Assembly (NCBI RefSeq): GCF_000014225.1
Contig: NC_008228.1
Span: 2,666,001-2,730,000, forward strand
Origin: Paraglaciecola sp. T6c
GTDB taxonomy: Bacteria; Pseudomonadota; Gammaproteobacteria; Enterobacterales; Alteromonadaceae
Reading direction: 5' to 3'
DNA: 64,000 nucleotides
Below are positions 52,367-60,998 of this stretch, one piece after another (the stretch's first letter is position 1; every line of letters begins with the position of its first letter). Made by a program: the position numbers and the translations under genes. Under the pieces are notes generated by a model that was not told where the DNA came from, searched no databases, and was given only the letters and a program-made list of their open reading frames with translations.

Positions 52367-53275
52367 TCAACACGGATAAAGCACCAATGCCGTTTGATAC
52401 ATCATTTGCTGGCGCAGGCCTGCACGCTGCTGCTGCATCACCGACAACAAATGTTGCCATTGTTGTGGGCAGTGCAGCGATAAATTTGCTAGAAATTTGA
52501 GTTGTACATCTGGGTAATGTTGTTTAACTAAATGTGATGTTAGCCAATCTACTTCTGGCAGCAAAAGATGGGAATATTGGCCCGATACCGCAATGCGCAT
52601 GCCTGCTAAATCGAAATCGCCAAAATAAATCCTTGGGCAACGGGGACGCGCGTGTTGCCAATGTTCGAGTAACGCCTTAGTACTGCTGCTGTGTTCACTG
52701 TCACCACGGTAAATAACCAAAAGCTTAGTTAGTTTTTGCGTCACCTGCCCTTGAAAGCGATGCCAATCATTAAAACTATCGCGGTTTTCGATGACCAGCA
52801 GGTTGTCGAAATCCGCTAAATTCAGCCTAGCTAAATCCAGTTCTACATTAACTTGCTCACACGGGTAAAACTGCTGATTAAACGCGTTGAGTGTTTGCAT
52901 GTCATTTGATAACAAAGGCGCTTGATGAGACAGCGCACACAGCACTAACGATTGCGTGGGTTTTATTCGCCCTTGCTTTTCATCTGTGCTTTTTAAGGCT
53001 GCACTTTGATGTATATCCTCACTAAAATCAGCAAAAATATCCTCACCCACACTCAGCAAATAATTGTCGCGTATGGCCTCAATGCCATGACGAGTAAAAC
53101 GGAAGTGCTTTTGCTTATTTAACCATTGCCCAGGCTGAATAAATTCTTGCTCGCACCAGGCCATAATATGGCTGACTGTGGCTGTTTTGCTGGTGCGGGT
53201 CTGCTCATCATGCAATAAAGCAAAGTACTGTTCTTTGAGCAGCAGCTTGGCCTTAGGCATCAATGAGTCAGTCAT
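52367..53275 (-). CDS. Toprim (JetD/MksG-type) subunit of the Wadjet-like operon
   Basis: This 302-residue protein comes last in the operon, 5 bp after the kleisin gene. The catalytic Toprim signature of JetD/DUF2220 can be placed: Glu163 in LLVIENRDSF and the acidic pair Asp220/Asp222 in YFGDFDLAG. In Wadjet, JetD cuts extruded circular plasmid DNA. Published JetD proteins are about 390-400 residues with an N-terminal DUF3322 arm; here the N-terminal part is short and not recognisable as DUF3322. The family call rests on motifs and context. A Toprim with another target, or a DNA-sensing role, remains possible. Confidence 0.8.
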   Translation of the reverse strand: MTDSLMPKAKLLLKEQYFALLHDEQTRTSKTATVSHIMAWCEQEFIQPGQWLNKQKHFRFTRHGIEAIRDNYLLSVGEDIFADFSEDIHQSAALKSTDEKQGRIKPTQSLVLCALSHQAPLLSNDMQTLNAFNQQFYPCEQVNVELDLARLNLADFDNLLVIENRDSFNDWHRFQGQVTQKLTKLLVIYRGDSEHSSSTKALLEHWQHARPRCPRIYFGDFDLAGMRIAVSGQYSHLLLPEVDWLTSHLVKQHYPDVQLKFLANLSLHCPQQWQHLLSVMQQQRAGLRQQMMYQTALVLYPC

Positions 53276-53280
53276 AAATG

Positions 53281-54555
53281 CTAGCTCGCGGCCTGAAAAT
53301 CACCGAAGAAACGCATGCCTAATTTAACATCTTGGATAATGTGCAGGTGGTTAAACGGACTCTTGCGCGCGCTGTCTTTTTCCAGCATGAAGCTTTGCTT
53401 ATTTTGTTGCGGTAGGCCTTCGTATTCAGCCACAATCTGAAACAGCCACATTTCAGGCTCCCACGGCAGCTCATTCTCGGCGAGGTAATCGACCCCGCTG
53501 ATCGCCGCGCTGCTCTCAATGACATGCAAGAAGAAATCTTCAACATCTTTGGCCAACTGCTTTTGCTCTGTGGCCACCAAATCTTGTACTGACGTGGCAA
53601 AGCCTTGAGTTTGCTTTTCTGAATGCGACTCAGGCACTAGATCTCGCGGGATAGCTCGGGCAATTTCAGCCAGTGCATAACTGTCTTGTGGCCTATCAAG
53701 GGCAACAAATGCTTGTGCAATGATACCGTGAGCTTGATTGATCACAGCGGGTACTTGACTGCGGTTTGGGTAATCCCCGACTTTGAAATTTGGGTGTTGA
53801 CGTAAAAACGCACTCATTCGATTGACCAACAAAGCGCGCTCTTGTTGATGACGGAAACGCGCCATTAACAACACCAAACGTTTTTGTACTTCCAGCAAAG
53901 AGCCCGAATGCTCGGAGATACGCGCTTGTAGTTGACTCACGAGGAGTTTTCGTAGGCCGCCGTCACTGCCAGCAAGTTGAATTAAATCATCAAAGCTAAT
54001 GATTTTGAATCCATCGAGAATACGTCTTAATTGACGCTGTGCTAGTTCAATTTCAAGAATTTTATCATCTAGACTGCTGACAAAACCAAACTCGGTATTA
54101 AGCCTATGCCAGAGGCTTTCTATGGCATCGCCAAATTGCCCAGTCATATCATGCACCCGCTCAGTCAGCAGTTGCATATGATGCTCACTTGCTGCGTAGT
54201 CGCCTTTTTGCCTAGCGGCTTGCAACGACTGCACTCGGGTATGAATTAAGTCTAAATGTTCGCCCACGTCAGAGTTGATCTGACGTTTGCGCTCATCTTG
54301 GGTTAACCCAGCGATGAGCTCATTAACATTAGGGCGTAAACTCAGGGGTTGCTGCTCATCTGGGCGCCATAAAATACGCCCATTGATTAACTTTTCAAGC
54401 GCCTGTTGGCTAAAGCTGCTTTCATCCACATGGCCTTGCAAATAGCCTTGCATAAGGGCTTCTGCATGTTTGCCAATCAGCTCTAGGCGCTCTTTGCCCA
54501 GTTGAAATAACGGATTGCTCTGGGCATTACTTTTGCCTTCGTTGATGTTGCTCAA
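53281..54555 (-). CDS. Kleisin-like subunit (MksF/JetA type) of the Wadjet-like operon
   Basis: This 424-residue, largely helical protein shows no transmembrane segment and no enzyme motif. It carries an N-terminal helical part (about 1-90), a central coiled coil (about 95-250) and a C-terminal domain. Its size, position between kite and Toprim genes and helix pattern fit MksF/JetA. The start is TTG, overlapping the kite stop (TTGA). That indicates translational coupling and stoichiometric synthesis. The assignment is by context more than by motif. Confidence 0.78.
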   Translation of the reverse strand: MSNINEGKSNAQSNPLFQLGKERLELIGKHAEALMQGYLQGHVDESSFSQQALEKLINGRILWRPDEQQPLSLRPNVNELIAGLTQDERKRQINSDVGEHLDLIHTRVQSLQAARQKGDYAASEHHMQLLTERVHDMTGQFGDAIESLWHRLNTEFGFVSSLDDKILEIELAQRQLRRILDGFKIISFDDLIQLAGSDGGLRKLLVSQLQARISEHSGSLLEVQKRLVLLMARFRHQQERALLVNRMSAFLRQHPNFKVGDYPNRSQVPAVINQAHGIIAQAFVALDRPQDSYALAEIARAIPRDLVPESHSEKQTQGFATSVQDLVATEQKQLAKDVEDFFLHVIESSAAISGVDYLAENELPWEPEMWLFQIVAEYEGLPQQNKQSFMLEKDSARKSPFNHLHIIQDVKLGMRFFGDFQAAS

Positions 54556-55175
54556 AACATGGCCTCTTGCTCAGGAGCATCTTCGTCAATGGGCACATTT
54601 TCTTCGTCTTTTATAAAACGCACTAATTCGATAAGTTGCTCGACTTTACCGGTCACAATATAAAACAAGCGGTCTTTATGGGGCTGATAGATGTAGCCCA
54701 ATTCTTTGATGCGCTTAAACACTTGCTTGATCTGCATATCAGCTTTGTCACTGGTGGACTTAAAAAGCTTGTCGTTAGATAACTGCCCTAACCGCTGAAT
54801 AAGGGATTGGTTATCTACCACTTTTGATTCAAAGTCTTGCAATTTGATGGTATCCCCTGCACTTAGTGCACCATCGCGTCCCATGGCTTCTTGCACCAAT
54901 TGCATCCATTCGAGCATGGGTAACAATGATTGCACCGTCGCATTAAATTGCTGACTGAGTTGCTGCCGCGCTTGTTGATTAAGCTCGCAATAGGCTAAGA
55001 AGTACACGGCGCCGTCTTCACTTTTCGCCACGCGGCGATTGAGAGGGCGCAAAAAATGATTTAGATCTTCAACCAGTTGTTCGTTTTGCAGTTTATGAAA
55101 ACTGTGCTCGTCAGTCACCGCACAAATAAACTCGCCTTCAAGTAAACGCTCGAGTAATGGGCCATTTTCTATCAT
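54552..55175 (-). CDS. Kite-like subunit (MksE/JetB type) of the Wadjet-like operon
   Basis: This 207-residue protein is predicted to be mostly helical with winged-helix-like segments (MIENGPLLERLLEGEF at the start, RIKELGYIYQPHKDRLFYIV later). This matches the MksE/JetB (DUF4194-like) kite subunits that bridge the SMC heads and kleisin. Its ATG overlaps the stop of the SMC gene by 4 bp and its stop overlaps the kleisin start by 4 bp, so it is translated in lockstep with both. The C-terminal tail is acidic (EENVPIDEDAPEQEAMF). Confidence 0.82.
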   Translation of the reverse strand: MIENGPLLERLLEGEFICAVTDEHSFHKLQNEQLVEDLNHFLRPLNRRVAKSEDGAVYFLAYCELNQQARQQLSQQFNATVQSLLPMLEWMQLVQEAMGRDGALSAGDTIKLQDFESKVVDNQSLIQRLGQLSNDKLFKSTSDKADMQIKQVFKRIKELGYIYQPHKDRLFYIVTGKVEQLIELVRFIKDEENVPIDEDAPEQEAMF

Positions 55176-58100
55176 GCTGTCACCTGTGGATTTTTGTTAT
55201 CTGCTGTGTGGTTAGCATTGCTGCTGGATAGGCTATTTTGTTGCAAGCGTTCAGCAATACGACTGAGCTTAGGCTCTATCTTCTCAAGGCGTTGGCGCTG
55301 CTTATCGATTAAGTATCTGTGTTTAAACAACATCAATACATCAGACTCAGGGTTAGGAAACGCCCCTAAAATATTGATGTGATTGGTATCACAGGCAGCG
55401 AACAGCTTTTCAACGTTGTGATAGGCAAGCGTACCAATTTCATCGATAGGCCAATGGATATCAATATTCGCTTGGTTTCTTAGCAAACGCGTAAAAGCCA
55501 ATAAGAACTTACACAAAATCAAATACGCCATACCATGACTGGATGACTCCAGTAATTGCCTGTCATTTTTAATCACTAAATCTGAGCCGCCTTCATTTAG
55601 GTGCAGCTCTAATCGCAGCAAAGACTCAATGCTGTAATTGGCATCGTTTGGCAGCACTTCAACCACATCGGCTAAAGTATCTAAGTAGGTTTCACTGGGC
55701 AAAAAGGCATCGGATTTATTCCAGTTATCATACTGCTCGGCAAAGCGTTTAAGAGGAGTCCAGAAATTCAGTTCATCCACGGTGGAGATAATCTTTACCT
55801 CTGAGCGGGCGATCCCATCTAGGGTCAAATCATCTGATACTTCGTCGGTGAGGCGTTTACTCTGCAGTGAGATCTTACGGTTAATATCGCTAAACACAGT
55901 AAAGAATTTATTTAAATCCCCGCCTATGGTTTCACCCTGCTCAACGATTTGTCGCTGACGAGAGGCTAAAATACTCAATAAACGCTGCAAAATAGGTAGG
56001 CGGTCACGCACGTTGGCATCTTCATCAAGCACGCTAAACGCTTGTAGCATGGTATCTAAAAAGTCTTTGCCGGCATCTTTGCCGAGATTCGCTTCAAACT
56101 CTGACAAAGCCTCTTTAAGTTTTTTCTCACCGCGGCTGCGACTCTCAAGCGCCTCGGTACAGCGACTAATACGCTCGGCTTGATCGCCTAAATTAATATC
56201 GCTTTCATCATTCGCTTTAAATGAAAAGGCAATATTGGCTAATTGGCGCACCATAGGTTCAATTTCGGTGATCAATGCACTGCAGGCCGATAAGCGTTTT
56301 TCAATCGCTGACAAGGCTTGGCTTAACTCAGTGCGTTTGTTTTGGTATTGACGTTGCAGCGTACTTTGTTGCTGAGTTAGTTGCTGTGCAGATGCTTTAA
56401 GCTCGGCTTCTTGCTCAAGTAACATTGGGCGTTGTTTCAGCCAATCTGACTGCATAAATGCTTTATATTCGTTTAGCTCTTCGCGGCGACTGGTCACCGT
56501 TTGAATTAAGCTTTTTAGGCTTTCGGTTTTCTGTTTGAGTGCCTTGAGGGTATTTGGGTCGATATCTTTGTTAGCAAGCTCTTGGTTAAATGCCTCTTCA
56601 AGCTGTTTAATTTGCTCACGATTTTGCTGACGTTTCTGCTCAACTTGCTTTTCTAATTCATCTATTTGCTCATCAAGCACAGCCACTTCATCTTGCCAAC
56701 CAGATTTAAATTCAAGCAACTGCTCGTCGTAATCGGATTTAAGCAAGGCAATGGCGTCAGCTTTTTGCTCAAGTATTTGCTTTTTCTCTTGCAGTAACGT
56801 GTCTAGGGCCGCTTGTGCTTGTTGACGACGTTTTTGTAGGACGATTTTGAGCTCGTCTGAGTAACGCTGCTTAGCGCTTTGGGCGTAACTGACTTCTTGT
56901 TCAGCTTGCTCAAAGGCACGATTGCGCTCTGCGACTACTTCGCGCTGCATTTCAGCTTCTTGATGCAATTGATCAAGCTCTGCTTCAGCGCTTTTTTGTT
57001 CTTTTTCGGCTGCTAATAAGTGTTTAGTTGCTTGCTGAAGCGCCACGCGCAATGCGGTTTCATCTTGGGCATAAGCGGGGGCATCAATCACTGAGGTATC
57101 TAATTGCACACCCAATAAATGTTGTTCGTCTGAGGTCTCTACTAACTTAGGGGAAAGATCTTTTCGCTCAAGCAAAGGCTCGACAATCAATTTCCCTATG
57201 GATTGCTCCCAACCGGGTTTATTGTCTCGTAAAAATTGACGTAGGCTGTCTTGCTCAGGGGAAAGCTGCTTATGCAATTGTTGTAGATGATCTTTACTTT
57301 GGCGGGTAGCAAGACGGGCTCTGTGTAGCGTTTTGTCAGCTTCATCACGTTTGTGCTGGCACTGCTGATGCAAAGCTTCAGCTTGTTTTTTAGCACCAGA
57401 GCTTTGTTGCCATGCTCGCTGGGCGAGCTCTAAACGTTTATCGGCCAGCGCCCCATTTTCCATTTCTTCATCGGTGGCAGAAGCGTGCTTCGCTTGGTGC
57501 TCTTGGCGCACAATACTGCGCTCAACGTCCATCAGCTGTTGTTCAAACTCTGACCCTTGCTGCTCTTTACGCTGCTCGAATTGGCTGCGCAGAGCGCTTT
57601 CTTTTTCATGATGGGTTTGACGAACAGTTTCTTTTTGCTGCCTGATGACCTTCACGCTTGCCTGATTTTTACGAGATAGGCGCTCTAATGACTCAGATAA
57701 TTTAAATTTCTGCTGCTCAAGTTGGCTTTGCAGATCTTTGTGTTGCTCTATGAGTAAGTTGTATTGCTCTAACGTTTGCTCGTATTCTTCCCGCGTTAGG
57801 GGTAATGCATCCATGTCTTTTTGCAGCTGTTCTATATCTGAGTCTTGGTACTTTTCGTACTGCTGCTGCAGGTGATCTAAACGAGAGGATTTGGCGGATA
57901 ATTGCTCGTTGGTTTCACTGAGCCGGCTGTTCAGTTCACCTTCTGCTTGCTCGAAGATATCTTTTTCAGCGCGTTGCTGGGTTTTATAGTTGTTTTTCTG
58001 TTCCTGCCCATCGGCTTTTTCTGTGGTTAGGTGCTGTAAGTCTTGTTCCAGTAACGGCTTCAGTAACAACAATTGCTGTTCAATGACATTGAGCTGCTCT

Positions 58101-58873
58101 GTTTGCTCCTGAATTTTTTCGTAGTCACCCTGCATGCTTTGCAAACGCATGGTTTGGCGCATTTGGGTGATCCACTCACGGGCTTTGGTGTTTTTTACTG
58201 TCGTGGTGGGTTGTACTAAACCATCTTCTTCAAAAATGGCTGCCAGCATGGTACGCAGAGTATCCATCTTGCCTTCTTTAGCATGTACCGCACTGACTAG
58301 CTTTTCCATGTGGCGTATACGATGCGCACTAGACACCAAGCTGTATCGGCTTGCCAGTTGCCTTAACTTGGTGTTTTCACGTCCTGTTCCACCCACACTG
58401 GCATCGTTTTGAATAATGCCGCGAAATTCACTGGTGGCTTGAATTTTATGAGAGAAGTCTATTTGTAATTGCCTGAGCTGCTTAATCCATTGCTCTGGCA
58501 GCATCGCTTGCGCTTCGCCGTTTTCCATTTCAACAAGAATTTGCTCGCTCTTATAGGGCGCATCAATAAGACGATACTGCACCCCATCACTGCCTTTGCG
58601 CGTTAACACCACCTGACATTCTTGACCGTCTTCGCGCTGATATTCGTAAATTAAATAGCTATTGGCGTGAGGCAAATAGAATTCATCGAATTTTTTACGG
58701 GTCTTGGGCACCACTTTACTGGGAAGCTCGCCATAAAAAACGGGGATCAGGCGTTGCAAAGTGGTTTTACCCGATGCATTGGTGCCACAGATATTACTGT
58801 GACCAGATACGTCAAGTTCAACAAAACCAGGAAGGTGACAATTAATTAGAATGATGCGGTGTAACCCAGGCAT
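55172..58873 (-). CDS. SMC-like ATPase (MksB/JetC type) of the Wadjet-like operon
   Basis: This 1233-residue protein is first in the operon. The N-terminal head has Walker A GTNASGKTT (residues 30-38). Very long coiled coils with many Gln, Glu and Lys run from about 280 to 980 with a hinge-like break in the middle. The C-terminal head has the signature-like SSHGMAYLILCKFLLAF and Walker B WPIDEIGTLA (Asp1144-Glu1145). This is the JetC/MksB layout, somewhat longer than typical members (about 1100). In Wadjet this ATPase extrudes DNA loops and recognises small circles. RecN/Rad50-like proteins are excluded by the kite, kleisin and Toprim neighbours. Confidence 0.88.
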   Translation of the reverse strand: MPGLHRIILINCHLPGFVELDVSGHSNICGTNASGKTTLQRLIPVFYGELPSKVVPKTRKKFDEFYLPHANSYLIYEYQREDGQECQVVLTRKGSDGVQYRLIDAPYKSEQILVEMENGEAQAMLPEQWIKQLRQLQIDFSHKIQATSEFRGIIQNDASVGGTGRENTKLRQLASRYSLVSSAHRIRHMEKLVSAVHAKEGKMDTLRTMLAAIFEEDGLVQPTTTVKNTKAREWITQMRQTMRLQSMQGDYEKIQEQTEQLNVIEQQLLLLKPLLEQDLQHLTTEKADGQEQKNNYKTQQRAEKDIFEQAEGELNSRLSETNEQLSAKSSRLDHLQQQYEKYQDSDIEQLQKDMDALPLTREEYEQTLEQYNLLIEQHKDLQSQLEQQKFKLSESLERLSRKNQASVKVIRQQKETVRQTHHEKESALRSQFEQRKEQQGSEFEQQLMDVERSIVRQEHQAKHASATDEEMENGALADKRLELAQRAWQQSSGAKKQAEALHQQCQHKRDEADKTLHRARLATRQSKDHLQQLHKQLSPEQDSLRQFLRDNKPGWEQSIGKLIVEPLLERKDLSPKLVETSDEQHLLGVQLDTSVIDAPAYAQDETALRVALQQATKHLLAAEKEQKSAEAELDQLHQEAEMQREVVAERNRAFEQAEQEVSYAQSAKQRYSDELKIVLQKRRQQAQAALDTLLQEKKQILEQKADAIALLKSDYDEQLLEFKSGWQDEVAVLDEQIDELEKQVEQKRQQNREQIKQLEEAFNQELANKDIDPNTLKALKQKTESLKSLIQTVTSRREELNEYKAFMQSDWLKQRPMLLEQEAELKASAQQLTQQQSTLQRQYQNKRTELSQALSAIEKRLSACSALITEIEPMVRQLANIAFSFKANDESDINLGDQAERISRCTEALESRSRGEKKLKEALSEFEANLGKDAGKDFLDTMLQAFSVLDEDANVRDRLPILQRLLSILASRQRQIVEQGETIGGDLNKFFTVFSDINRKISLQSKRLTDEVSDDLTLDGIARSEVKIISTVDELNFWTPLKRFAEQYDNWNKSDAFLPSETYLDTLADVVEVLPNDANYSIESLLRLELHLNEGGSDLVIKNDRQLLESSSHGMAYLILCKFLLAFTRLLRNQANIDIHWPIDEIGTLAYHNVEKLFAACDTNHINILGAFPNPESDVLMLFKHRYLIDKQRQRLEKIEPKLSRIAERLQQNSLSSSNANHTADNKNPQVTA

Positions 58874-59120
58874 AGACGTCCTTTACTCAGGGGTAGAAAA
58901 CATAAGCCAAACACATTGGCTAACTTCGTAACCCTAAATTTTACCTAGATTTATGCCGCTTGAATACCTTGAATATGAGTGTATTAACAAAGCTTGGTGA
59001 TTAACGGATAGGGTTATAGACAGTGCGGATAAAAATTCGCGTTCTAACAAGTGCGCTTATCTGTGCAAATAACTACTGCTTTAATGTGTCAAAGCACGCT
59101 AGGTGTGAACCGTTAGCGTT

Positions 59121-59600
59121 TAGTTCATCTCAAGCTTGCAGTTCCTATGACCTTTCACGAGGACAAAGACCGATCCCGAGGCGAATTTGTTTTGGCTTTT
59201 ACTTTTTACTTTTTACTTTTTGAAATAGTAAGAATTAACTCTGAAGTATCGGTTGGTTGCGGGAGCAGGATTTGAACTTACGACCTTTCGCGGATATGAA
59301 GAGCGAGTCCGAGAGCGATTTAGTTTTGGCTTTTTACTTTTTGATGTAGTAAGAATTAATTCTGAAGTATCGGTTGGTTCCGGGAGCAGGATTTGAACCT
59401 ACGACCTTTCGCGGATGCGAAGAGCGAGTCCGAGGGCGAATTAGCTTTTGATTTTGGAAATATAAGAAATAAAACTGAAGTATCGGTTGGTTGCGGGAGC
59501 AGGATTTGAACCTACGACCTTTCGCGGATACGAAGAGCGAGCCCAGAGGCGAATTAGCTTTTGATTTTGGAAATATAAGAAATAAAACTGAAGTATCGGT
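59121..59600 (-). repeat. tRNA-fMet 3'-half repeat array 1
   Basis: Downstream of the tRNA at 59601-59677 lie four tandem copies of a 113-133 bp unit. Each contains a copy of the tRNA T-arm and 3' acceptor strand including CCA (minus strand). On the plus strand the TGG that matches CCA starts at 59488, 59375, 59254 and, degenerate, 59121. Spacing from the tRNA TGG is 113, 113, 121 and 133 bp, and divergence grows with distance. The remainder of each unit has GGGCTC-type sequence replacing the anticodon region and an AT-rich spacer. Confidence 0.9.
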
Positions 59601-59677
<77 letters not shown>

Positions 59678-59690
59678 TCCGATGTGGTGC

Positions 59691-59719
59691 AATATATAGA
59701 GACGTTCAGCGCAATACAA
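59691..59719 (-). promoter_or_regulatory. Probable promoter of tRNA-fMet copy 1
   Basis: On the minus strand TTGTAT and TATATT are 17 bp apart, ending 13 bp before the tRNA. The block GCACCACATCGGA next to the tRNA is nearly identical in front of the second copy. Confidence 0.55.
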
Positions 59720-60047
59720 GAGAAGTTTTACTTATTGATACTGACTGCTGGTTTATCCCGCAGTTCGTGCTTATTTTAAGCGTTTAGCAGAAAATAACTC
59801 CGTTGATAAAGACCACGCCTGCTGCTATTACGAGTTAATCATTACCAAAGAGCTCTCACACCATCACCCACATCAATTTAAAACACCTTTCAATCAACTC
59901 TTATACTGTTTATACCCATATTTCAGTGAGGATCGCAGATAAGGTATTTGATGTGTTTAACGATATGCCTTTATATCGATTAGTTTGGAATGTGAATTAC
60001 GTTCTAACAACTCTAGGGGTCTACACAATTTAACGCATAGGTTTTGT

Positions 60048-60511
60048 TGTCTGTGTAAGCAGGATTTGAAATATTGGGCTTTCGTGGATACCAAGAACGA
60101 GTCCGAGGGCGATTTAATTTTGGCTTTTTACTTTTTGAAATAGTAAGAATTAATTCTGAAGTATCGGTTGGTTGTGAGAGCAGGATGTGATTATACAACC
60201 TTTCGCGGATGCGAAGAGCGAGCCCGAGGGCAAATATGCTTTTTTTTAACTTTTTTGAGAATAAATCTGGCGGTATCGGTTGGTTGCGGGAGCAGGATTT
60301 GAACCTAAGACCTTTCGCGGATACGAAGAGCGAGCCCAGAGGCGAATTTGGTTTTGCTTTTTGAGCTTTTTTGAGAATAAATCTAGAGGTATCGGTTGGT
60401 TGCGGGAGCAGGATTTGAACCTACGACCTTTCGCGGAGACGAAGATCGAGCCCGAGGCAAATTTGGTTTTGTTTTTTGAGCTTTTTTGAGAATAAATCTA
60501 GAGGTATCGGT
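60048..60511 (-). repeat. tRNA-fMet 3'-half repeat array 2
   Basis: Downstream of the second tRNA lie four further repeat units of the same design. The plus-strand TGG matching CCA starts at 60397, 60281, 60169 and, degenerate, 60048. Spacing is 115, 116, 112 and 121 bp. As in array 1, the copy farthest from the tRNA is the most diverged. The spacer between CCA and the next unit differs from array 1 in the nearest copies but matches it in the distant ones (GGCTTTTTACTTTTTGAAATAG-type sequence). Confidence 0.9.
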
Positions 60512-60588
<77 letters not shown>

Positions 60589-60606
60589 TCCGATGTGGCG
60601 CACTTT

Positions 60607-60636
60607 ATATATCTTAATTGGCTATTGCAAGTACAA
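60607..60636 (-). promoter_or_regulatory. Probable promoter of tRNA-fMet copy 2
   Basis: On the minus strand TTGTAC and TATATA are 18 bp apart, followed by GC-rich GTGCGCCACATCGGA before the tRNA, matching copy 1. Confidence 0.5.
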
Positions 60637-60923
60637 TCAACAACGATTTGTTTAAATGGTCACTTATCATACAAACCGAACATTTTTTAAAGCAATACAT
60701 AAATTCAGACGGTTCGTATACATTTTTTGAATGCTTTGTTGCGCCAGTCGCACCTATTAAATATAGCCCATGAAGTTACGTACTTAATTTCTGTAGAGAT
60801 ACAACAATTACTCGTGTGCTTATATGTTGTACTAGACGCGATTACAACTCATTACAAAATTTTCATTTTGTTACAAATTACTTTTTTAATCGAGCGTTTT
60901 ATTTACCATCACCTCTATAAAAT

Positions 60924-60942
60924 GTGAATGATAATCAGTAAC
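60924..60942. promoter_or_regulatory. Fur-box-like site upstream of the EAL gene
   Basis: GTGAATGATAATCAGTAAC matches the 19-bp Fur consensus GATAATGATAATCATTATC at 15 of 19 positions, with the central AATGATAATCA intact. It lies 56 bp before the EAL protein ATG. The rest of the 60589-60998 gap shows only AT-rich sequence. AT-rich DNA can give chance matches. Confidence 0.45.
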
Positions 60943-60998
60943 ATAGTCGAAAATTCAGTGTTGTAACCAAGTACTACGTATAGTTGGTCAGGATTTAT

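Follow-up and report, generated by a model that had tools for sequence, protein, structure and literature searches.

A Probable SMC-First Branch of the Mks/Wadjet Group With a Detachable Toprim Gene

A window of 64,000 nucleotides of bacterial DNA (NC_008228.1, positions 2,666,001–2,730,000) contains, at 52367–58873 of its minus strand, four co-directional genes encoding a structural maintenance of chromosomes (SMC) ATPase, a kite protein, a putative kleisin and a Toprim protein, in that order. These genes probably belong, at a rough probability of 0.6, to an SMC-first branch of the Mks/Wadjet group, in which a loop-extruding motor would carry a detachable nuclease, probably cutting small circles, and would in addition perform a job independent of that nuclease. 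Among the relatives of the operon, the gene set, its order and the catalytic residues recur, the genes are inherited together, and the Toprim gene has been lost repeatedly from an unchanged SMC-kite-kleisin core. The four genes, with lengths in amino acids (aa) and the source of each name, are the following:

55172–58873, minus strand: SMC ATPase gene (MksB/JetC-like, PF12128 DUF3584), first gene of the operon, 1233 aa; Pfam and motifs
54552–55175, minus strand: kite gene (MksE/JetB-like), 207 aa, overlapping the SMC gene by 4 bp; Pfam PF21980
53281–54555, minus strand: putative kleisin gene (MksF/MukF/JetA-like), 424 aa, TTG start, overlapping the kite gene by 4 bp; AlphaFold2 and Foldseek
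52367–53275, minus strand: Toprim gene (DUF7281, JetD/MksG/Topo VI-A-like), 302 aa, following the kleisin gene after a 5-bp gap; Pfam and structural model

The operon had been described before from the sequence alone (hereafter the preliminary description). Re-reading the sequence returned the same positions of the open reading frames (ORFs), the same two 4-bp overlaps and the same 5-bp gap, and an ORF check gave the same order, with all four genes on the minus strand. The naming of the four subunits is also supported, SMC, kite and Toprim being named by Pfam and the candidate kleisin by Foldseek on a low-confidence model. A profile search of the source genome recovered one DUF3584 gene and no canonical JetD_C. 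Judged by sequence, this genome belongs in or near Paraglaciecola, and the closest named SMC among the best 80 of 519 relatives is that of P. mesophila KMM 241 (97% identical). The guanine-cytosine (GC) content of the operon is 0.455 compared with 0.448 for the window, and a scan of the operon for promoters and terminators gave nothing above chance.

Distribution and Gene Order

The operon was followed in draws of 147 genomes from the bacterial family and of 274 and 185 genomes from the class, as well as in a named set consisting of the best 80 of the 519 relatives found. A full DUF3584 SMC is present in 71 of the 147 family genomes, and in all 71 the SMC, kite and kleisin genes are consecutive with the SMC gene first (in G136 the SMC is split by contig ends). 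About half of the family genomes are without the core, which is patchy by genus (g50, 3/4; g28, 2/4; g26, 1/4). In the named set the core was seen in 76 of the 80, the remaining four being cut by contig ends; the hosts are Paraglaciecola, Rheinheimera, Arsukibacterium, Alishewanella, Oceanospirillum, Marinospirillum, Halomonas/Vreelandella, Chromohalobacter, Ectothiorhodospira and others. Once nine duplicates of family rows are dropped, 58 of 67 named rows have a Toprim gene and 9 have none; one of the 58 (L179:15539–16198, Vreelandella nanhaiensis) encodes a truncated protein of 219 aa without the C-terminal motif. Outside the family the branch is rare, as an SMC over the cut-off was found in 7/274 class genomes, two of which lie inside the same family.

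Twenty loci of the same class with a canonical JetD_C served as a control, of which 13 could be read for gene order and 7 were cut short or unresolved by the ORF caller. In all 13 readable loci, the SMC gene is preceded by two genes that match kleisin and kite in size, and were so named on size and position alone, and JetD comes last. The order of the window operon, previously claimed to be unusual, does differ from that of the canonical loci, but it is the rule across a broad branch (71/71 family genomes) and not an oddity of one locus. A lone gene-order curiosity is thus rejected, since SMC-first is standard in family genomes, named relatives, plasmids and phage. The operon was also seen on a 10,953-base contig of Escherichia albertii NBRC 107761 (L159), where the core is close to marine copies; either contamination or transfer would account for it.

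Loss of the Toprim Gene

Among the 71 family genomes with the core, the Toprim gene is intact in 18 and absent from 52, and in the one remaining genome it is broken in two. Every sampled genome of several genera has the core while only some have the Toprim gene: 4 of 6 in g1, 2 of 5 in g14, 2 of 5 plus one broken in g17, 1 of 3 in g51 and 1 of 4 in g52. Genus g42 has both in 4/4, and in g9 (5/5), g11, g13, g24 and g36 (each 4/4 sampled genomes) the core is fixed and the Toprim gene is found in none. Both states furthermore occupy the same chromosomal place, with common flanking genes on both sides, in g51 (L031 with Toprim, L088 without) and in g14 (L028 with, L070 and L075 without).

Of 62 loci with a missing or broken Toprim gene, 4 retain Toprim remnants in the 1.3 kb behind the kleisin gene, as two fragments in L094 and as stubs in L124, L139 and L092. 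The stub of L139 is 92% identical to the Toprims of its neighbours over the first 26 residues, and that of L092 82% over the first 22. A profile search of 62 upstream control stretches found no Toprim remnant, the tblastn part of the search having covered the downstream stretches only. The stubs are real losses of the Toprim gene. As an observation apart from these, genome G394 holds two extra DUF7281 fragments, one with an internal stop, at C1:1604478–1604884, away from the full-length Toprim gene near its SMC gene.

Trees were inferred with FastTree and midpoint-rooted, a root which is no evidence of direction. On the tree of 147 concatenated cores, the Toprim state changes 19 times by Fitch parsimony, whereas 300 shuffles gave 47.65 changes on average and never fewer than 38, and 28 maximal Toprim-less clades are counted if regain is forbidden. 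The Toprim and core trees have in common 30 of the 44 Toprim splits with a support of at least 0.9 and disagree on 14; L027, L028 and L029 form a group by Toprim as well as by core. Together with the remnants in 4/62 loci, the agreement on 30/44 supported splits makes a late gain of the Toprim by some lineages less likely. Relocation of the gene elsewhere was rejected because only one of the 52 Toprim-less genomes (G023) has a DUF7281 match, which belongs to a Toprim-first system discussed below; G061 likewise has this system, found with a purpose-built profile. The DUF7281 genome search recovered all 18 Toprim-bearing family genomes. A divergent Toprim behind the kleisin in Toprim-less loci was also rejected, on five downstream proteins tested by Pfam and one read by eye: Pfam identifies those of L090, L072, L076, L052 and L069 as HDOD/EAL, EamA, aminotransferase and Na/Pi cotransporter proteins, with one unnamed, and the protein behind the kleisin in L097 was judged by eye to be an oxidoreductase. 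The preliminary description had presented the four genes as the set found in systems that cleave or silence plasmids, a characterization which does not carry over to the 53/71 family relatives without an intact Toprim, whose core is equally conserved.

Constraint on Motor and Nuclease

Protein identities were compared among 69 Toprim-bearing chromosomal loci, leaving out L027–L030, L032, L179 and all mobile copies. Of the 2346 pairs, 2331 have the lowest of their four protein identities in the Toprim, which averages 59% identity where that of the SMC is 80–90%. Column conservation was calculated on a thinned set of 34 Toprim-bearing and 49 Toprim-less rows, and the mean column identities with and without Toprim are 0.589 and 0.596 for the SMC, 0.696 and 0.672 for the kite, and 0.613 and 0.597 for the kleisin. 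The ratio of nonsynonymous to synonymous substitution rates (dN/dS), estimated from hand-picked close pairs of which several have saturated dS values, is 0.022–0.066 for the SMC with Toprim (11/12 pairs with finite dS) and 0.020–0.052 without (6/12). From the equal conservation of the core and the low dN/dS in both states it follows that selection on the motor remains just as strong once the nuclease is lost. The Toprim dN/dS exceeds that of the SMC in 10/10 pairs with both values finite and is mostly 0.08–0.28, with one value of 0.90 from a very-low-dS pair. A search for core residues that track the Toprim, as a docking surface might, gave nothing convincing (two SMC columns in one direction, two SMC columns and one kleisin column in the other).

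MukB (PF04310) is over the cut-off in 0/147 family genomes, the E. coli control being positive, and ScpA was found in 139/147. On these profile counts the motor would exist alongside Smc-ScpAB as a second SMC complex, a place that one study gives to MksBEF in P. aeruginosa (PMC4255302). In genus g38, ScpA was not found in any of the 4/4 sampled genomes (G038, G078, G109 and G135), one of which, G135, holds the four-gene operon.

The Four Proteins

The Toprim protein matches PF23947 (DUF7281) with 87.6 bits (Pfam cut-off 27). Its model, based on 44 sequences, reaches a mean predicted local distance difference test (pLDDT) score of 90.5 and has as its best solved match, over the whole length, subunit A of Topo VI (1d3y; Foldseek E 2.6e-6). 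The key residues are E163, N164, G191, D220 and D222, with R288-Q289-Q290 at the C-terminus. The E163/D220/D222 set given by the preliminary description is present in the window protein, and among the aligned homologues E163, N164 and D222 are kept in 85/85 and D220 in 84/85. The protein is also shorter than canonical JetD, as had been claimed (302 aa versus 375–439 aa in the 13 readable canonical loci). No tyrosine is found among the invariant or nearly invariant N-terminal columns of the homologue alignment.

The C-terminal motif of canonical JetD is EQE in 9 and DQE in 4 of the 13 readable loci. In the branch it is x-Q-Q in 72/85 aligned homologues, x-Q-E in 12/85 and gapped in 1; plasmid Toprims have Q-E in all 11 copies read (11/11), and the phage Toprim has Q-Q. 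The two C-terminal glutamates of JetD have been proposed to be catalytic and are the equivalents of E349/E351 of MksG (PMC10123090). In Top6A, the substitution E342Q is described as loosening a clasp and raising DNA breakage (PMC13040014), and Q290 of the window protein, aligned by way of the JetD motif, would be the equivalent of E342.

The SMC protein matches PF12128 with 784 bits (Pfam cut-off 31). It contains a Walker A motif (GTNASGKTT) from residue 30 and a Walker B motif (WPIDEIG) with D1144/E1145, both found where the preliminary description had placed them, as well as an ABC signature (SSSHGMAY) from residue 1110, and the residues of all three are invariant across 22 aligned homologues. 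The supposedly greater length of the SMC is marginal (1233 aa against 1107–1231 aa in the 13 canonical loci) and no distinguishing mark. The kite matches PF21980 MksE with 29.5 bits (Pfam cut-off 27).

For the 424-aa protein, there is no Pfam match above a cut-off, no PADLOC match and no sequence-profile match among solved structures. Its AlphaFold2 model (33 sequences, mean pLDDT 67) has a helical domain at the N-terminus, long helices and, at the C-terminus, a helix-helix-hairpin domain predicted with more confidence (pLDDT about 80–88). In a Foldseek search with this model against 350,542 solved chains, ranks 1–4 are chains of MukBEF/MukE-MukF entries (E 0.003–0.013, best 2.7e-3), and ranks 7, 9 and 12 likewise belong to MukBEF, MukE-MukF or MukF, rank 12 being MukF(1–287). 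Proteins of the 14-3-3 family are interleaved in the list, in which no match has E ≤ 0.001 and the TM-scores are low. Judging by chain lengths, the matched Muk chains would be MukF and not MukE, only 1t98 being named MukF. These matches are support for a kleisin, not proof of one, and its position and conservation fit. The preliminary description would have been refuted had these two proteins turned out not to be kleisin and kite, and it was not refuted in this way: the kite passes the MksE cut-off, and the kleisin is a candidate with Muk chains at its first four ranks, but at modest E values and on a model of low confidence.

Mobile Copies

A tblastn search with the SMC matched 42 of 72,556 plasmid records, 9 of them covering at least 80% of the query, and 1 of 50,697 phage records, namely the 209-kb Dolichospermum phage Dfl-JY45. 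The SMC, kite, kleisin and Toprim genes stand in that order in 11 of the 12 plasmid regions read (L185, L186, L188–L194, L223 and L224), and the plasmids measure between 40 and 925 kb; in L194 the SMC and the kleisin are each annotated in two pieces. The four proteins of the plasmid copies match the four family profiles, and two plasmid Toprim homologues show a weak TOP6A-Spo11 match below the cut-off. The phage carries all four genes (MksE 28.8 bits, DUF7281 116.8 bits). A scan of viral contigs gave 84 pattern matches, none of which is a relative, and phage carriage therefore rests on the one record in 50,697. The DUF3584 of a Delftia phage, mentioned in PMC5735904, is a weak coiled-coil match and was not taken as evidence.

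The twelfth plasmid region (L187:7992–8657) is a lone SMC head fragment of 222 aa beside an IS630-family transposase on a Raoultella plasmid, and other enterobacterial plasmids yield matches equal to it in extent and score. In the window, two tRNA-Met (cat) genes with equal scores lie at 59601–59677 and 60512–60588 on the minus strand, in the 2.1 kb upstream of the SMC gene, and both are surrounded by short repeated tRNA-like stretches (58934–60983). The contigs of three relatives (L033, L039 and L097) stop near the operon on the SMC-upstream side.

Comparison With Known Systems

The operon resembles Wadjet I–III (JetABCD; MksBEFG in Corynebacterium) in combining an SMC, a kite, a putative kleisin and a Toprim with an E … DxD site in one operon, with the Toprim last. 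It differs in gene order, which is kleisin-kite-SMC in the 13/13 readable canonical loci, and which PMC10123090 gives as mksFEBG. A further difference lies in the Toprim, where a JetD of 375–439 aa with EQE or DQE is replaced by a protein of 302 aa with RQQ. Matches to the curated Jet models are weak: JetD_C reached 17 bits (cut-off 22), and the best PADLOC matches were 26.5 bits for JetD3 and 18.4 bits for JetC1. PADLOC found nothing for the kleisin or the kite, and NCBIfam nothing over a cut-off for any of the four window proteins. The relation to Mks/Wadjet suggested earlier, and the divergence within it, agree with an MksE match over the cut-off and weakly matching PADLOC Wadjet models; the preliminary description adds that target or trigger may differ. 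Since the profiles, the order and the C-terminal motif of Wadjet I–III are not those found here, the branch is, on its sequence features, not assigned to types I–III.

The nuclease-less condensins MksBEF of P. aeruginosa and MukBEF of E. coli have the same subunit set as the Toprim-less form found in 52/71 family genomes; the window kite matches MksE and the kleisin model resembles MukF. Unlike these condensins, the branch is SMC-first, has DUF3584 instead of MukB and includes many relatives that keep the nuclease. The Toprim fold is in turn like that of Topo VI subunit A and Spo11, but the protein is without a conserved N-terminal tyrosine and is encoded with an SMC motor, not a GHKL ATPase. 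Lamassu/DdmABC combines LmuB with an LmuA effector and has neither kleisin nor kite, and no Lamassu model of PADLOC matched the four window proteins.

A second, Toprim-first Mks operon occurs in the same bacterial family (L044:8445–15067, L045, L100, L101 and L102). It likewise encodes a Toprim similar to DUF7281/JetD_C, an SMC and an MksE (81 bits in L044), but in the order Toprim, SMC (978–997 aa), a protein of 464–479 aa and MksE, and its Toprim ends in EQE in 5/5. In L044 the operon is preceded by a WYL-domain protein, and the other loci have related proteins upstream, on the same or the other strand.

Nuclease-less members of the Wadjet group are an already published idea: many members associate with MksG/JetD, while MukBEF and several others are without it (PMC7617805), and MksBEF, perhaps also MukBEF, have been proposed to descend from Wadjet by nuclease loss (PMC10586767, PMC7617805). 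The literature search found no paper naming DUF7281 or PF23947, and five naming DUF3584 or PF12128. Nor did it find anything on an SMC-first branch with repeated nuclease loss within genera, and as supplementary data were not covered, an earlier description is possible.

Discussion

By analogy with Wadjet I, as presented in PMC10586767 and PMC7617805, an SMC dimer closed by the MukF-like kleisin and carrying kites would load onto DNA and extrude loops. On a small closed circle the DNA would run out, whereupon a Toprim dimer would be engaged and the circle cut; loop extrusion, circle sensing and cleavage are in this branch extrapolated from relatives. The core would have a second, Toprim-independent job because the constraint on it persists without the Toprim. 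This job would most likely lie in DNA organisation or segregation, alongside the housekeeping Smc-ScpAB, or could be something else, and the nuclease would be an add-on that can be dropped.

Several points weigh against this interpretation. Searching the solved structures with sequence profiles gave coiled-coil noise and no relative for either the SMC complex or the Toprim, and no JetD or MksG structure is among the best 50 Foldseek matches of the Toprim model. The JetD_C match stays below its cut-off, and PADLOC finds no JetA or JetB. As RQQ replaces the EQE/DQE proposed to be catalytic, cutting may differ or be weak. The activities of motor and nuclease are argued from sequence and analogy, and with the core in only 71/147 family genomes, the accessory job could equally be non-chromosomal.

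It is unlikely, though the best of the alternatives, that the operon is mainly a second condensin, whose Toprim would be a regulatory nicking or topoisomerase-like helper, not a plasmid killer, kept or lost by lineage. The strong constraint on the core with or without Toprim agrees with this, as do the genera in which a Toprim-less core is fixed (g9, 5/5; g11 and g24, 4/4 each), the Topo VI-A fold as closest solved match and the replacement of the glutamates proposed as catalytic in JetD. All four genes on 11/12 plasmid regions and one phage fit a conflict between replicons better, however; the tyrosine that a topoisomerase-like helper would need is not among the conserved N-terminal columns, and the metal site of the Toprim is intact. 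Less probable still is defence throughout, with Toprim-less cores silencing or expelling plasmids by compaction without cutting. A core equally constrained after Toprim loss would be expected here too, but with a dN/dS of 0.02–0.05, set against the level typical of defence genes, and fixed as it is in several genera, the core looks more like housekeeping machinery than like a defence gene. Silencing through compaction is an action of SMC complexes that has been discussed in the case of Smc5/6 (PMC10586767). An addiction or competition module of large plasmids and phages, of which the chromosomal copies would be leftovers of integrated elements, is very improbable: plasmid and phage copies, all with Toprim, lie near the midpoint root and the window operon adjoins two tRNA-Met genes, but that root gives no direction, chromosomal neighbours are conserved on one or both sides in g1, g51 and g14, the GC content is close to that of the window (0.455 versus 0.448) and dN/dS is low.

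Returning to the motor with a detachable nuclease, a bolder version can be offered tentatively, and is judged somewhat less than even. The branch may be a live series in which plasmid-cutting machine and condensin are converted into one another, a single motor doing both jobs. On most chromosomal copies the nuclease would have given up the glutamate clasp (E or D-Q-E changed to R/K-Q-Q); it would evolve several times faster than the motor and would have been dropped many times independently without relaxed constraint on the motor, and plasmid copies would keep both the nuclease and the last glutamate. If this is true, condensins of the MukBEF/MksBEF type could arise by mere nuclease loss, with intermediates alive in Paraglaciecola, Lacimicrobium and Rheinheimera.

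Sister genomes within a genus show both states at one and the same chromosomal position, which makes the nuclease-loss proposal testable by the addition or deletion of a single gene. The defence-system models tried hardly detect the branch, so that surveys resting on them probably undercount such systems, plasmid copies included. The locus is therefore suited to asking how defence machines and chromosome-organising machines interconvert.

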